Below, in pieces: positions 39,181 through 63,990 of a DNA stretch of 64,000 bases (the stretch's first letter is position 1; each line of letters begins with the position of its first letter). Source of the stretch: Norana najaformis (Eukaryota > Annelida > Clitellata > Crassiclitellata > Hormogastridae); assembly GCA_964023275.1 (NCBI GenBank), contig OZ029916.1, forward strand, positions 47,309,749-47,373,748. The letters are read 5' to 3'. Under the pieces are notes generated by a model. That model worked only from the letters and a program-made list of their open reading frames with translations. It made no database searches and was not told the DNA's origin. A program made the translations under genes and the position numbers.

Positions 39181-39903
39181 GCCAGAACAACCGTGGTCGC
39201 AGGTGCTGCTGCTGAGATCGCAGCAGAACGAAAGACCTCAAAATACAGTGATATTCTCTCGACACACTGCTTCGTCCCTCTGGCCTTCGAGACTCTATGC
39301 CCCATAAATCAGGAAGGCTTCAGCCTCATCAAGAAAATCGGACGCCATTTAACCCAAGTATCGGGAGACAAGAGGGAGACTTCTTTCCTGTTCCAACGCC
39401 TCTCCATTGCCATCCAGCAATCTAACGCGATTGCCTTTAATGGCACATTCTTGGAGCCAGATTTAAGCGAAGACTGGCAATTCCAGAGAACAATCACCGT
39501 GCCTGAAGCCAAGATTAAAGAAAAGGAGAGAACCTGGAACTGGTCGTCGAGACCCAGCCGACGGGCCCCAACCGATCCTCTGGGTCAAGGAGCCACACCG
39601 CCTGTCGAAGGTCAGCCGGCGGGTCGAGGAGACGTCGACGCTCGGGTCAGTGAAGCCCACGACGCAGGCGCCTTCGAAGCAGACGACGACGGCGATGAAG
39701 AGGAGGGAGTTGGTGGTGCTGGATGTTCGTCCGATCCACACCGGAAGTTCTTGCGCCCCATCGAAGAAACGCCCACAGAACGCTCTACACTTACGCGACC
39801 GCTTCTTCACCACGGCGCTTAAAGACAAGATCATGAGATTCGGAGGTGCAGCTAGTCGACCTGTTTCCAATGTGCCAGCCTGGACGCCACAGCAGCTCTA
39901 GTT
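39181..39903 (+). CDS. LINE ORF2 C-terminal fragment with unusual extension
   Basis: From 39181 the frame reads ARTTVVAGAAAEIAAERKTS, then FETLCPINQEGFSLIKKIGR and RETSFLFQRLSIAIQQSNAI with AFNGTF. This matches the C-terminal region of a class of invertebrate LINE reverse transcriptases (the ET.G...ELGRR...RET.YLFQRLS.A.QR.NA pattern). It has no ATG because the 5' part is missing. After EPDLSEDWQ the frame continues about 110 residues into Pro/Glu/Asp-rich sequence (VSEAHDAGAFEADDDGDEEE) ending near 39822. A second frame, shifted by one, is open to 39903 (KPTTQAPSKQTTTAMKRREL ... AWTPQQL). The extension from about 39490 is homologous to 63.5-63.8 kb on the other strand. Confidence 0.6.
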
Positions 39904-48858: not shown

Positions 48859-50286
48859 TCAGTCCGTCTTCTGTCTATCGTCGGAGATCCTCCGACCGGA
48901 GAAGCGCTGATCTTGGTTCCAATAGGGAATCCTAGGCGGCGCACTAACCGTCTTCCTCGTGTCCTGTCCACGCTGCAGTCGCGCCCTCTGGCTGTGGAAA
49001 AGCGAGTTGACGTTCAGGGCGTCTTCCGGGTAGAACTCGGGATCGTCGCGACGACCCCGTCGGGTGCGGGTTCGTCGAAGTCTACCGCAAATACTGACCC
49101 GCCGAACGGTGCGACAAAGCTGGGCACGAAACGTCCGCGCGCAGAGACTGTAGAGGACAAAGTTAAGGCCGTAATTGAGGAAATATGGAACCGAGGTGAT
49201 GTACTTCGTGGCAAAGAGCGTCCAGGCTATCTCCGGGTTCGAATCCCCGTCGGCATCGACGAGGCTGAGGTGGTTGAAGAAGACGACGAACCAGGAGACG
49301 CAGTAGGGTACGTTGAGAACAACGAATGTCGTCGAGACGGCCAGCAGGACGGTGGTTACGCTGTAGTCTCGCAACGGCCGGTAGTGGATCGGTTGGTTGG
49401 GCCGGTGGTTCTGGTGACTGCACGGGGACCACAGGTCGAAGGACGTGCTGACCTCGGATTGGTTGCCATGGCGATGGGCATGTTGGTGGTCGTCAAGGTG
49501 ATGGTGGTGGTGGTGACGGTGGTGGAAGTTCAGGTGGCGAGGAGACCACACGAGGTTTGGAACGAAGTTCTCCGAGCGAACCCCGATCTTCTTCAGGATG
49601 ACGAAATTGAGTACGACTATCGTCATGACGGGAACGACGATCGACCCGAAGATAAGAAAGATGACGTTGCAGACGCCGTATACGGTTGCCATCTGGGGTA
49701 AAACATCGCAGTCCGTGCTCGACTCCCCTCCCTTGTGATCTGGCACAATCCCGATGGTAAAGAGAGTAAAGGATGCGAACACGACACAAGCGACCGTCTC
49801 CAGAACTATCACGTTCCTCGCATGACTGACGGAGATGACGGAGGACCGACGGAGGGGGTATACGACAGCCACGAACCGCTCGACCGTGAACGTCGTGACC
49901 AGCCAAGCGGAAAGCAGTCGGCTGGAGTAGGACAGGTGCGTGAGTCCGGTGCAGACGGCCCTTGACATCCTCATCACCTGCAGACCGACCTTCTCGTTCT
50001 TCAGCCAGTAATCGAAGGTGATCGCTACTAGGGAGAGGTTGTCGGAGATGGCCAGGGCAGCTAGGTACCAGCTCGAGGCCCGCCGTCTCATCTGTGGGGT
50101 TGTAAAGACGATGACGGATACAGAGTTGCAGATGAGTCCGAGAGGTACAATGAAAGAGAGGCTGTAGAACATGAAATCGAGGCTGAAGCGGTAGAGCGCC
50201 GACTCCGTGGAGCTGTTGCAACAGTCCAGGTGACCGACGACGGTGCTTAGCAACGACTGTGACGAAGTGTTCGGTGGCGCAGCCAT
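48859..50286 (-). CDS. Rhodopsin-family (class A) peptide-type GPCR, intronless
   Basis: A 475-residue receptor. I start at ATG 50286-50284 (M-AAPPNTSSQ); a longer frame would need a TTG start. Seven hydrophobic segments: TM1 about 38-61 with N54; TM2 LAALAISD with D82; TM3 after C112, ending ERFVAVVYPL (E136-R137-F138 in place of DRY); TM4, TM5; TM6 with FVVLNVPYCVSW (P327); TM7 LNYGLNFVLYSL (N375...Y379 in place of NPxxY). C112 and C193 form the usual disulphide. N6 and N24 are possible glycosylation sites. This pattern fits the FMRFamide/TRH-receptor-like peptide receptors expanded in lophotrochozoans; ligand unknown. The third intracellular loop is His-rich (255-273). The basic tail RLRRTRTRRGRR follows TM7. 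Single exon; the long antisense frame is a shadow. Confidence 0.85.
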   Translation of the reverse strand: MAAPPNTSSQSLLSTVVGHLDCCNSSTESALYRFSLDFMFYSLSFIVPLGLICNSVSVIVFTTPQMRRRASSWYLAALAISDNLSLVAITFDYWLKNEKVGLQVMRMSRAVCTGLTHLSYSSRLLSAWLVTTFTVERFVAVVYPLRRSSVISVSHARNVIVLETVACVVFASFTLFTIGIVPDHKGGESSTDCDVLPQMATVYGVCNVIFLIFGSIVVPVMTIVVLNFVILKKIGVRSENFVPNLVWSPRHLNFHHRHHHHHHLDDHQHAHRHGNQSEVSTSFDLWSPCSHQNHRPNQPIHYRPLRDYSVTTVLLAVSTTFVVLNVPYCVSWFVVFFNHLSLVDADGDSNPEIAWTLFATKYITSVPYFLNYGLNFVLYSLCARTFRAQLCRTVRRVSICGRLRRTRTRRGRRDDPEFYPEDALNVNSLFHSQRARLQRGQDTRKTVSAPPRIPYWNQDQRFSGRRISDDRQKTD

Positions 50287-50399
50287 TGGCAACGACCAGT
50301 CACAGACCAACGTCTGCTGGAGCTAAGCAACGGTTGCAATCCGTTTCTTCGTGTCTTATGGGATTGAACGCAAACACGGTTTACTGAAAAGATTATATA

Positions 50400-60725: not shown

Positions 60726-60784
60726 ATCGTTCTAAAATCATAGTTCGGACAATAAAGCGATTGCGCGGAAGCCCATTATTATAA

Positions 60785-63408
60785 CACTGGCCAACACATA
60801 ATTTGTTGCCTCAAATGTTAGAACTGTTTCTGGGTATATTTGACCTGCTGATTCCAGAAAAGGCACCAGTTTTCTCCCATCAGGTCTAGTTTTCGAGATA
60901 TAGAACATTATGCCATATACCAGTCCTTGCCTCTGCTCGCCCATAAAACATAAGGCTATAGCTATAATTATGTAGTGCTCAATTTATTATGTGATACACT
61001 AATTAAACATAATAATACAAATACTTAAAAAAAAATGGTAGTACCTGAAACTGTACTTATATGATGCCAAACAGAACAAGTTTGTTATAAAAATTTCAAG
61101 TCATTCGACACCGAAGAAGCTCCTTTTGTACGATTTCCCAGTGTGGCATCTGCCGGAACAATCGCGCATAATATTCCAGCAATAGTCTGCCATCATGTGT
61201 GCATCCCATCTTCCTTGATATCGATTTTCCATTGTTTTGATGTCTTGGTGAAATCTTTCACCTTGCTCTTCGCTGAAGTCACCAAGATTCTCTGGAAAGC
61301 GATCTAAGTGACTCTGGAGATAATGGACTTTAATGCTCATGTTGCAGCCAAGCTTGTTGAAATGAAGAAGCATATCCTCTACTAGTTGTGCATAATTGTC
61401 TGCCTTCTTGTTGCCAAGAAAATTTTTAGTTACAAGAACAAAGGAAGACCAGGCACAAGATTCGATTTCATTCATTGATGGTATGAAAAGTGGGTCATTC
61501 ATAAGTTGCCTGATCTGTGGACCATCGAAGATTCCAGCCTTCAATTTTTCCATTGTAATTCCTGGTAACTTGTGTACTATGTATTCAAAGCATGAACCTT
61601 CTTTATTCAAAGCCCTGACAAATTCTTTCATCCGGCCTAGCTTTATATGTAGTGGTGGCAGTATGATCCTATCTCGTGCCACCAAAGATTCCTTGATTAC
61701 ATTTTGAGCTCCAACCACCATGTCTTTCCTCGAAGGCCAATCTTTTCTTGTCCAATGTTCATGCTTGGCTCTACTGTCCCAAAGACACAAAAAGCAGGGA
61801 TACTTTGTGTAGCCACTTTGTTGACCAAGGAGGAAATTTACCATCTTCAAGTCTACACAAATTACCCATTGATGTTCTTTGTATTTTATCTTTTCCAGTA
61901 CTAAAGAGATGGCATTGTACTCTTCTTTCATCCTGGTGGAGTGACCGATTGGAATAGAACCAAATTTGTTGCCGTTATTTAAAAGCACACATTTCAGACT
62001 ACGTTTTGAACTGTCGATAAAAAGACGCCACTCATCTGGGCTGTAATCCGACAGACCAATTTTCTTCAATAAGTTGCTGATGTCATTACAGAATACTAGG
62101 TTGTTGTCTTCGGTAAAGAATGGCAGCAAATCCTTTTCTCTGTTTCCATAAATTGTAATTTTCGTTCCAGGCTGAAGTGCATTCTTTTCCTTTAGTCTGG
62201 ACGCAAGCAATTCAGAGGACTCTTTGGAAAGATTTAAGTCCCTGATCAGATCACTCAACTCTTTTTGGTCAAAACGTTCACTGTGTGAAGTTGATTGGAA
62301 ATCACTGTCACTGCCCCCACTTTCTTCACTTTCGTCATCTTGTCCGATATTGGACATGCAAGTCTCATCGTCTGAGAGCTGAGGTAGTTCGCGAAAAGGT
62401 GGAACTGGTACAATATCCGAATGCGGAACAGGTCTCCTGGCTGAAGGTATATCAGGGTAAGACAACTTGTGACGATTATTTCGATTGATGCCTATGATAT
62501 TAACCATACAAAAGTAACAGTCGTCGAAGTGGTTTATCTGTTCCCTCCAAACCATCGGTACACCAAATTTCAGGCAGCTTCTCTTTCCAATTGTCCAGTG
62601 GCGCAATTGTTCAATACAAGTTTTGCATACTGTATGAGGAGCCCATTGCTTATCTTGATCTCCAAGTTTGACACCAAAATAACCTACATATGCTCTTTTT
62701 ACAAACTCAGAAATCGGTTTCCTGTTTGCTTTTAGTGTGTATTCCCCACAAATGTAGCAGAATATGTCTGGATGGTTAATGCAGCTCCGTCTGGAAGTAG
62801 CCATAACCTTAAGGATGTTCGCATCTGAGGAATTAAATGACTAACCTAAAAAATAGTAAGAACATGTAGTTATTTAATGCTCACATTCACAGATTGTTCT
62901 TGCGACCAACTCTTAATATGCCCTAAGACGACTGCGGCTGCTCTAGCTTTCAGGAGGCGGTTTATATAGGCTATAAATGCTGACTGCAGCATAATCTATT
63001 TACATAGTTCGAAACCATGAAACGCTGTATAAGCACAAATAAATTCTAAATGAGGCCATGAATTTAGTGCTGAGTAAGCTGTAGGCTACGGAATAGTTAT
63101 TTCGTTGAATCAGCAAAATCTCAGCACGCGGCAAGATATGCTGATTTTACATTATAAGGATGTAGGCATTATATGAATCAGCAAGAATTATAATTAGCCA
63201 TAAATAAAGCTTATTATGACATTTTAGTTTTGCCAAAGACATCGTTTAAAGAGTGGACTGGGTTTTCTTTACAAAATCGACGATATCTCAGAAACTAGAC
63301 CTGATGCACTCAATCCAATGACATTTTCTGAATCAGCGCCCAAAATTACCCCAAGAACAGGTCTAAAACCGAAGGCAACAAGAAAAAAAAATTTTCTGTT
63401 GGCCAGTG
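60785..63408 (-). mobile_element. Complete-looking DNA transposon with ~120-bp TIRs
   Basis: The left end (60785-60901) and the inverted right end (63283-63408) both start CACTGGCCAACA and share, in the same order, TTGCCT, CTGTT, GCTGATTC, CATCAGGTCTAGTTT and GAGATAT. The 2,624-bp element holds one intact gene (61101-62804). Each side is flanked by TAA, a possible 3-bp target duplication. CACTG ends and 3-bp duplications recall the CMC/CACTA group, but the encoded protein is not the usual CACTA transposase. Confidence 0.8.
61101..62804 (-). CDS. 567-aa protein of an unnamed multi-copy metazoan family, probable transposase
   Basis: An uninterrupted single-exon frame from ATG (62804-62802, G at -3 and G at +4) to a stop at 61101. 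N-terminal cysteine pairs C16-C19 (FCYICGEY), C60-C63 (VCKTCIEQL) and C96-C99 (DDCYFCMVN) look zinc-binding, a little like ZAD or BED-type fingers. Conserved-looking phrases include YFGVKLGDQDKQWAPHTVC, PSARRPVPHSDI, an acidic stretch near 145-172, KMVNFLLGQQSGYTKYPCF with CLWDSR, and EEQGERFHQDIKTMENRYQG. From memory this sequence type recurs as uncharacterised proteins in many animal genomes, often in many copies. Acidic residues in ICVDLK and in GERFHQD could belong to an RNase H-like catalytic core; that is inference. It is centred between the TIRs, which argues for a transposase. It is not recognisable as a host gene. Confidence 0.7.
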   Translation of the reverse strand: MATSRRSCINHPDIFCYICGEYTLKANRKPISEFVKRAYVGYFGVKLGDQDKQWAPHTVCKTCIEQLRHWTIGKRSCLKFGVPMVWREQINHFDDCYFCMVNIIGINRNNRHKLSYPDIPSARRPVPHSDIVPVPPFRELPQLSDDETCMSNIGQDDESEESGGSDSDFQSTSHSERFDQKELSDLIRDLNLSKESSELLASRLKEKNALQPGTKITIYGNREKDLLPFFTEDNNLVFCNDISNLLKKIGLSDYSPDEWRLFIDSSKRSLKCVLLNNGNKFGSIPIGHSTRMKEEYNAISLVLEKIKYKEHQWVICVDLKMVNFLLGQQSGYTKYPCFLCLWDSRAKHEHWTRKDWPSRKDMVVGAQNVIKESLVARDRIILPPLHIKLGRMKEFVRALNKEGSCFEYIVHKLPGITMEKLKAGIFDGPQIRQLMNDPLFIPSMNEIESCAWSSFVLVTKNFLGNKKADNYAQLVEDMLLHFNKLGCNMSIKVHYLQSHLDRFPENLGDFSEEQGERFHQDIKTMENRYQGRWDAHMMADYCWNIMRDCSGRCHTGKSYKRSFFGVE

Positions 63409-63531
63409 TAATCATTGCTATCAATGTCGTTGTCACTCGCTACAAGTGACGTTGTTTTTGCCTCTTCCTCAGGAAACTACAGCCGCGGAATTGGAGCAAA
63501 GTAGCAAGACGTCCTTATTCCCTTCGATGGA

Positions 63532-63990
63532 TCATAATCGGTGGGGATCGGACGAACATCCTGCTCCTCCAACTCCCTCCTCTTCGCCGTCGCCGTCGTC
63601 TGTTTCGATGGCAGCTGCGTCATGGGCTTCGCTGGTCCGAGCGTCGGCGTCTCCTCGACCTTGACTCGTCGGCTGACCTAGGTCAGGCGTTGGGGCTCCT
63701 TGATCTTGAGGACCGGTTGGGACCCGTCGGCAGGGTCTCGTCGTAAAGCTCCAGGCTCTCTCCGTTTCTTTAATCTTGGTTACAGGGGCCGCCTTCTCTC
63801 CTTCTTTGATTTCGGCTGTAGGCGTCTTCTTCTTCATTTTATTATTGTCGATGAAGACCTTAATTTGCGACTGGATACGCTCGCTCGTTGCACTGAGTGC
63901 TAGTTCTGAGATCGTGAATTCGTCTGATTGCCTCTTCTGAACTAAATCCTTCAGGTCTCGTCCCTGTTTTCTGCTGTTAACCTTTGTTAA
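63532..63990 (-). CDS. Unrecognised Lys/Pro/Glu-rich coding fragment
   Basis: On the minus strand the frame is open from about 63990 to a stop near 63532. Upstream of the first ATG (63837) it reads GRDLKDLVQKRQSDEFTISE, then LALSATSERIQSQIKVFIDN; after it come AEIKEGEKAAPVTKIKETER, TSEAHDAAAIETDDGDGEEE and GVGGAGCSSDPHR. The second half is homologous to 39.49-39.75 kb. A frame shifted by one (VLKIKEPQRLT, one stop, KPMTQLPSKQTTATAKRREL) is also conserved between the copies. Beginning without ATG and touching the window edge, it may be an exon or a retroelement ORF fragment. Confidence 0.4.
   Translation of the reverse strand, partial: LTKVNSRKQGRDLKDLVQKRQSDEFTISELALSATSERIQSQIKVFIDNNKMKKKTPTAEIKEGEKAAPVTKIKETERAWSFTTRPCRRVPTGPQDQGAPTPDLGQPTSQGRGDADARTSEAHDAAAIETDDGDGEEEGVGGAGCSSDPHRL

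Follow-up and report, generated by a model that had tools for sequence, protein, structure and literature searches.

Within the window, the whole stretch of 64,000 nucleotides of Norana najaformis DNA that was analysed here, lies an element of which we conclude, with a probability of roughly 85%, that it is a full-length and probably autonomous transposon of the Chapaev3 type (CMC/CMCT), a type with which we compared it by published features and which would move by a cut-and-paste mode. The element is well formed and young, and on its features it belongs to a named group, Chapaev3; the group itself is not new. The coordinates of the element and its parts are collected in Table 1.

Table 1. Positions, in window coordinates, of the element, its ends and the features of its transposase gene.
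Feature	Position	Strand	Basis or remark
Complete DNA transposon, 2,624 bp	60785..63408	- (gene strand)	Terminal inverted repeats, 3-bp duplication, and sister copies that are nearly identical and share the borders
Left target-site duplication TAA, A before	60782..60784	.	Flank reading and copy comparison
Right target-site duplication TAA, T after	63409..63411	.	Flank reading and copy comparison
Left terminal inverted repeat, first 12 bases CACTGGCCAACA	60785..60901	+	End alignment, blastn
Right terminal inverted repeat	63283..63408	-	End alignment, blastn
Subterminal repeat GCTGATTC, left	60847..60854	+	Repeat near both ends
Subterminal repeat GCTGATTC, right	63330..63337	-	Two further copies at 63107-63114 and 63175-63182
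Subterminal repeat CAGGTCTA, left	60881..60888	+	Repeat near both ends
Subterminal repeat CAGGTCTA, right	63296-63303; 63358-63365	-; +	Repeat near both ends
Transposase gene (very probable), 567 codons, no intron needed	61101..62804	-	Open frame; intact in 9 of 19 aligned copies
N-terminal putative zinc-binding region, residues 16-99 (C16xxC19, C60xxC63, C96xxC99)	62508..62759	-	Sub-threshold Pfam zf-AD, DZR_2
D264, candidate first catalytic Asp	62013..62015	-	End of predicted first strand, low confidence
D318, candidate second catalytic Asp, aligned with mouse RAG1 D708	61851..61853	-	RAG1 comparison
C337xxC340, C(2)C motif	61785..61796	-	RAG1 comparison
L385 H386, LH motif	61647..61652	-	RAG1 comparison
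H494-x4-H499, H(4)H motif	61308..61325	-	RAG1 comparison
E516, most likely catalytic Glu; alternatives E512, E513	61257..61259	-	Motif reading, RAG1 comparison

Borders and inverted ends

The first 12 bases are identical at both ends of the element, and a similarity of about 70% continues from there for 120-150 bp. Local alignment of the outer 200 bp gave a score of 52, compared to a maximum of 24.5 in 500 Markov-simulated pairs, and when the first 14 bases were removed, the remaining score of 44 was reached in none of 1000 simulated pairs. In a blastn comparison, 60785-60901 matched 63408-63283 with 69.5% over 128 columns (E 6e-6). The inverted ends of about 120 bp that had been proposed in a first-pass annotation of this DNA are thus real, and its reading of TAA on both flanks was confirmed. 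The alignment of sister copies, which had been suggested there as a way to define the ends, fixes both borders as well as the 3-bp duplication. The termini of the window element read CACTGG..CCAGTG, and the CAC..GTG trait of Chapaev3 is therefore present. Two short repeats recur in subterminal positions near both ends, and one of them, GCTGATTC, is a possible binding site of the transposase.

Some observations were made elsewhere in the window. Just outside of the transposon lies one arm of an inverted pair with 82% identity (39502-39743 and 63539-63786), the frames of which have a common GVGGAGCSSDPHR peptide; the pair is probably a dispersed repeat or a gene fragment. The region 29181-29653 matches its own reverse complement with 81% over 488 columns and thus represents a long hairpin or foldback-like element. 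On the minus strand at 48859-50322, there is a stop-to-stop frame of 487 residues that by eye resembles an intronless seven-transmembrane (G-protein-coupled) receptor.

Dispersed copies and their age

All copy searches were carried out with the genome from which the window was taken (608,420,607 bases in 17 contigs). Across the genome, 131 sites (63 forward, 68 reverse) have the right-end 19 bp without mismatch and TWAT directly after them, as opposed to 0 sites with the reversed control pattern. When the right-end 216 bp were used, 40 of 661 candidates were scored, and all 40 matched these 216 bp from end to end with an identity rounding to 100%; the 661 are unscored first-look matches and do not represent a copy number. 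The left-end DNA yielded 4 matches, including the window's own, which is an undercount because most of the regions found by the right end also contain the left end. We fetched 20 regions, 17 of them chosen by right-end and 3 by left-end matches. As these regions were picked from end matches, the sample is biased to the youngest copies.

The whole element was matched without interruption in 15 of the 20 regions, corresponding to 16 copies (two in L044) with 97.5-99.4% identity to the window copy. For all counts that require both ends, we used 20 copies, namely 19 from the fetched regions and the window copy; L047 and L056, in each of which one end was unrecognised, are not part of this set. The alignment comprised the 19 copies of up to 2,800 bp, again including that of the window, and only here the 4,509-bp copy L053 was left out. 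The mean pairwise identity of the aligned copies was 99.3%, and the individual copies were 0.08-0.53% off the majority. Two copies, L040 and L042, are identical in sequence; they occupy separate contigs and differ in their flanks and in their duplication (TAA in one, TTA in the other). Compared with the majority, they have nine amino-acid changes in common, seven of which are confined to this pair, and they are a very recently moved sublineage. Recent activity had been suggested in the first-pass annotation on the basis of the intact frame, and recent amplification is supported by the high mean identity of the 19 copies together with the identical pair. The window element is very recently copied and unusually young, and the family could still be active at present.

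The 567-codon frame is kept in 9 of the 19 aligned copies. In the other 10, the full frame is gone due to lesions that differ from copy to copy and that may postdate the insertion. We had considered the frame-less copies as a sign of movement in trans, but this interpretation was withdrawn because the lesions are not common to the copies. Coding changes found in single copies comprised 60 non-synonymous and 3 stop changes versus 12 synonymous changes (pN/pS 1.31), and the shared changes had a ratio of 12 to 1 (pN/pS 2.99). Neither the singleton nor the shared changes thus gave any sign of purifying selection among the copies. Copies that drift once they have inserted would be expected to lack coding constraint in this way, and the result is neutral with respect to present activity.

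Some copies deviate in arrangement or length. L044 contains two full-length copies in tandem, in the same orientation and about 190 bp apart. An additional stretch of about 1.9 kb is present in the L053 copy, and the copies in L052 and L055 have lost about 350 and 800 bp from their interior; length variants of this type are possible non-autonomous derivatives. We joined the flanks and searched the available DNA for unoccupied target sites; no clear empty site was detected. The only junction-spanning matches, those with L039, L046, and L052, were rejected, as they appear to represent either simple repeats or the same locus.

Other sequence collections were searched as well. In viral contigs, one peptide-pattern search gave no match and another gave 23 pattern matches, none of which was a relative according to tblastn. 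Two matches to a first degenerate pattern in viral contigs (L001 and L002) were judged to be chance after tblastn, and a second degenerate pattern had no match there. Two pattern searches of genome contigs resulted in 3 and 23 matches, none of them a relative, and tblastn searches of phage and plasmid collections gave no match. As these collections cover viruses, prokaryotes, phages, and plasmids, the negative results say little about animals.

Target-site preference

An exact 3-bp duplication was present in 18 of the 20 both-ended copies; the two without it are L055 and one of the two L044 copies. The 18 duplications were TAA (8), TTA (6), TAG (2), TAT (1), and TGA (1). TWA thus accounts for 14 of them, with a background of 4.5% of window positions. 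The duplication was preceded by A in all 18 cases and followed by T in 16, and the latter position therefore reflects a strong preference and not a strict rule. The background of the complete ATWAT is 0.7% of window positions. The termini CACTGG..CCAGTG were found in 19 of the 20 copies, with TACTGG at the left end of the mentioned L044 copy as the only exception. As the copies were recognised by near-matching ends, the termini of the other copies are not independent support. The CACTGG ends and 3-bp duplications that the first-pass annotation had proposed to look for in genomic copies are there, at the stated frequencies.

The encoded protein and its N-terminus

The longest stop-to-stop frame of the element has 579 amino acids, which compares to a maximum of 225 in 1000 Markov-simulated sequences. 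The 567-codon frame had been described as intact and centred between the ends; it is indeed intact, but it is not quite centred, with 604 bp of the element upstream of the ATG and 316 bp downstream of the stop codon.

In a Pfam search of the protein, no model reached its cut-off, and phmmer found no match among PDB sequences up to E 10. The three CxxC pairs that had been noticed at the N-terminus could be assigned to the positions given in Table 1. The N-terminus had sub-threshold matches to zf-AD (E 0.0059 with the whole protein, 0.00082 with the first 113 residues) and DZR_2 (E 0.029 and 0.0023, respectively), and further zinc-finger models matched more weakly. The rest of the protein matched a single model, a bacterial ZapG-like one, and again below threshold (E 0.19 and 0.1). 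A Chapa zinc finger is described for the N-terminal part of RAG1, for Chapaev, and for Chapaev3 in the accessible part of PMC4411706, and the N-terminal cysteine pairs of the element protein possibly represent such a Chapa domain, the name of which we take from that source. A comparison with the N-terminus of mouse RAG1 gave a local score of 40, which was reached by 49 of 2000 full shuffles, by 133 of 2000 shuffles with fixed cysteines, and by 173 of 2000 that kept C, H, and W in place. The register of the alignment differed from that suggested by the order of the cysteines. Because this likeness is not significant and out of register, we do not regard it as evidence.

Candidate catalytic motifs and predicted fold

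The protein contains the three motifs C(2)C, LH, and H(4)H of Chapaev3 transposases in the form of C337xxC340, L385H386, and H494x4H499, followed by the candidate glutamates E512, E513, and E516. With a C(2)C and an H(3-4)H lying in the interval from the second D to the last E, it also has the CMCT trait. The counterparts in mouse RAG1 (PDB 9jpu) are D708-x18-C727xxC730, L794H795, H937x4H942, and E962, and the D-x18-CxxC spacing is the same in both proteins. In blastp, the best piece paired D318-C340 exactly with RAG1 D708-C730 (35% over 23 residues, E 0.22), and a second piece, which is collinear with the first, paired the LH regions (E 2.9), whereas a third piece (E 0.48) was out of register. 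With E values of 0.22 and 2.9, neither of the first two pieces is significant by itself, and the two proteins have no significant overall similarity. An hhalign comparison of the two single sequences (RAG1 core) recovered only the D-to-CxxC piece, with a probability below 1%. The chain D-x18-CxxC..LH..HxxxxH..E occurred in 17 of 20,000 shuffles, and in 44 of 20,000 when LH was not required, with gap limits of the pattern that had been chosen after the sequence was seen.

Two single-sequence AlphaFold (AF2) models were poor, with pLDDT values of 33 and 37. In both, the low-confidence prediction runs through three strands, then a helix, then one more strand; D264 lies where the first strand ends, D318 just past the fourth, and E516 in a later helix. 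Such an order of strands and helix, with residues at those positions, is as in RNase H-like transposases. Foldseek with the core model found nothing at E <= 0.001 among 208 matches up to E 10, and there was neither RAG1 nor a transposase among the 50 matches listed of these 208. The models are of too low quality for a comparison of folds, and we make no use of this list. The RNase H-like core considered in the first-pass annotation is likely to be present by its motif order, and the sequence of strands and helices in the two poor models agrees with it. The 567-residue protein, whose frame and motifs are in keeping with a transposase of the appropriate class, is very probably the transposase of the element, in agreement with the earlier view.

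The putative zinc-binding N-terminus and a linker would probably bind the inverted ends of 120-150 bp. An RNase H-like DDE core consisting of D264, D318, and E516, which may carry a zinc-held insertion formed by C337xxC340 with H494x4H499, could cut the element out at its CAC ends. The excised element would then be inserted at an ATWAT target that has been cut with a 3-bp stagger, and repair after joining would leave the TWA duplication.

Probable assignment to Chapaev3 and alternative readings

In the portion of the published Chapaev3 description that was available to us, the hallmarks are CAC..GTG termini, a TWA duplication, and the C(2)C, LH, and H(4)H motifs; A and T adjoin the duplication in every Chapaev3 examined there, and the genes mostly have one exon, with an example of 556 residues (PMC4079192). 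The CMCT clade includes Chapaev, EnSpm, Mirage, Transib, Plavaka, ESTA, and Lanisha, and the motifs common to its members, located after the second D and before the E, are C(2)C and H(3-4)H, according to the accessible sections of PMC12730594. The termini, duplication, target site, and transposase motifs of the element match Chapaev3 in that description, and on these features the first-pass annotation was wrong in placing it in a group not usually named; at the level of features, as distinct from protein sequence, the element clearly falls within a superfamily that has a name, an outcome that the annotation had listed as refuting its reading. Excerpts of two further sources equate Pfam DUF1280 with Chapaev (PMC3985635) and describe Chapaev3 as only distantly related to other Chapaevs (PMC4411706). 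DUF1280 (PF06918), Transposase_21, and RAG1 were absent from the Pfam matches up to E 10, a range in which the HMMER filters drop most matches above about 0.1. The absent DUF1280 match counts against a plain Chapaev and is compatible with a distant Chapaev3.

An animal EnSpm/CACTA transposon would share the CMCT group, the CAC..GTG ends, and the 3-bp duplications. In the accessible text of PMC12730594, CAC..GTG termini with a 3-bp target-site duplication are indeed taken as EnSpm features, and both groups have C(2)C and H(3-4)H. Nevertheless, we consider this reading quite unlikely, since there is no Transposase_21 match within the above search range, and since the ATWAT preference of the element fits Chapaev3 better, for which such a target is described (PMC4079192, in the part seen), whereas excerpts on animal CACTA elements describe CCC ends and a 2-bp duplication (PMC1636069, PMC4298943).

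The lack of a Pfam model at cut-off, together with the fact that the likeness to Chapaev3 was determined by description and not by protein comparison, would also suit a new and unnamed CMCT lineage that is sister to Chapaev3 or to Transib/RAG1. As the testable Chapaev3 hallmarks in the accessible description, i.e., ends, duplication, target, and motifs, are all present (PMC4079192), such a lineage is distinctly improbable. That the element represents an undescribed branch of CMCT/RAG1-like transposases is unlikely. If true, its intact and recently amplified copies would provide a working and compact single-gene relative of RAG1, whose zinc-finger N-terminus and catalytic core would be open to direct study.

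It is very improbable that a host gene or unrelated insert was captured between terminal repeats mobilised by another element. The loss of the full frame from 10 of the 19 aligned copies could at most indirectly be taken in favour of a capture, but it occurred by differing lesions, perhaps after insertion; moreover, borders and gene travel together in the copies, and the frame and motifs are those to be expected of a fitting transposase. PIF/Harbinger elements also make TWA duplications. Despite this duplication in the element copies, a PIF/Harbinger element is hardly tenable, as no Harbinger-type transposase model was among the Pfam matches, the termini are CAC..GTG, and C(2)C..H(4)H is a CMCT trait in the available part of PMC12730594.

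Significance and comparison with known systems

The element family assigned here to Chapaev3 comprises numerous copies that are nearly identical, a considerable share of which retain an intact frame, and it is a candidate for testing the activity of a Chapaev3 transposase. It is likewise a candidate for studying how TWA duplications are made and how this transposition relates mechanistically to RAG1. Such elements would account for proteins of this type perhaps appearing as many-copy uncharacterised genes in animal annotation.

The Chapaev3 transposase is a distant relative of RAG1, the enzyme that cuts antibody genes. With RAG1/Transib, the element protein has in common the same order of D-x18-CxxC, LH, H-x4-H, and E, as well as N-terminal CxxC pairs. 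The difference in size is large, as mouse RAG1 has 1,040 residues and the element protein has 567. The duplication of RAG1/Transib is 5 bp, in contrast to the 3 bp of the element.

Compared with the Chapaev3 elements Merrow, Garfield, and Conan, in the accessible part of their description (PMC4079192), the element shares the CAC..GTG ends, the TWA duplication flanked by A and T, and the motifs C(2)C, LH, and H(4)H. In size, it is close to Garfield_BM in the same source (2,289 bp and 556 amino acids, versus 2,624 bp and 567 amino acids). Its single exon is like that of most Chapaev3 elements and unlike Merrow and Garfield, and a few of its targets are not TWA, unlike what this part of the description gives for Chapaev3.
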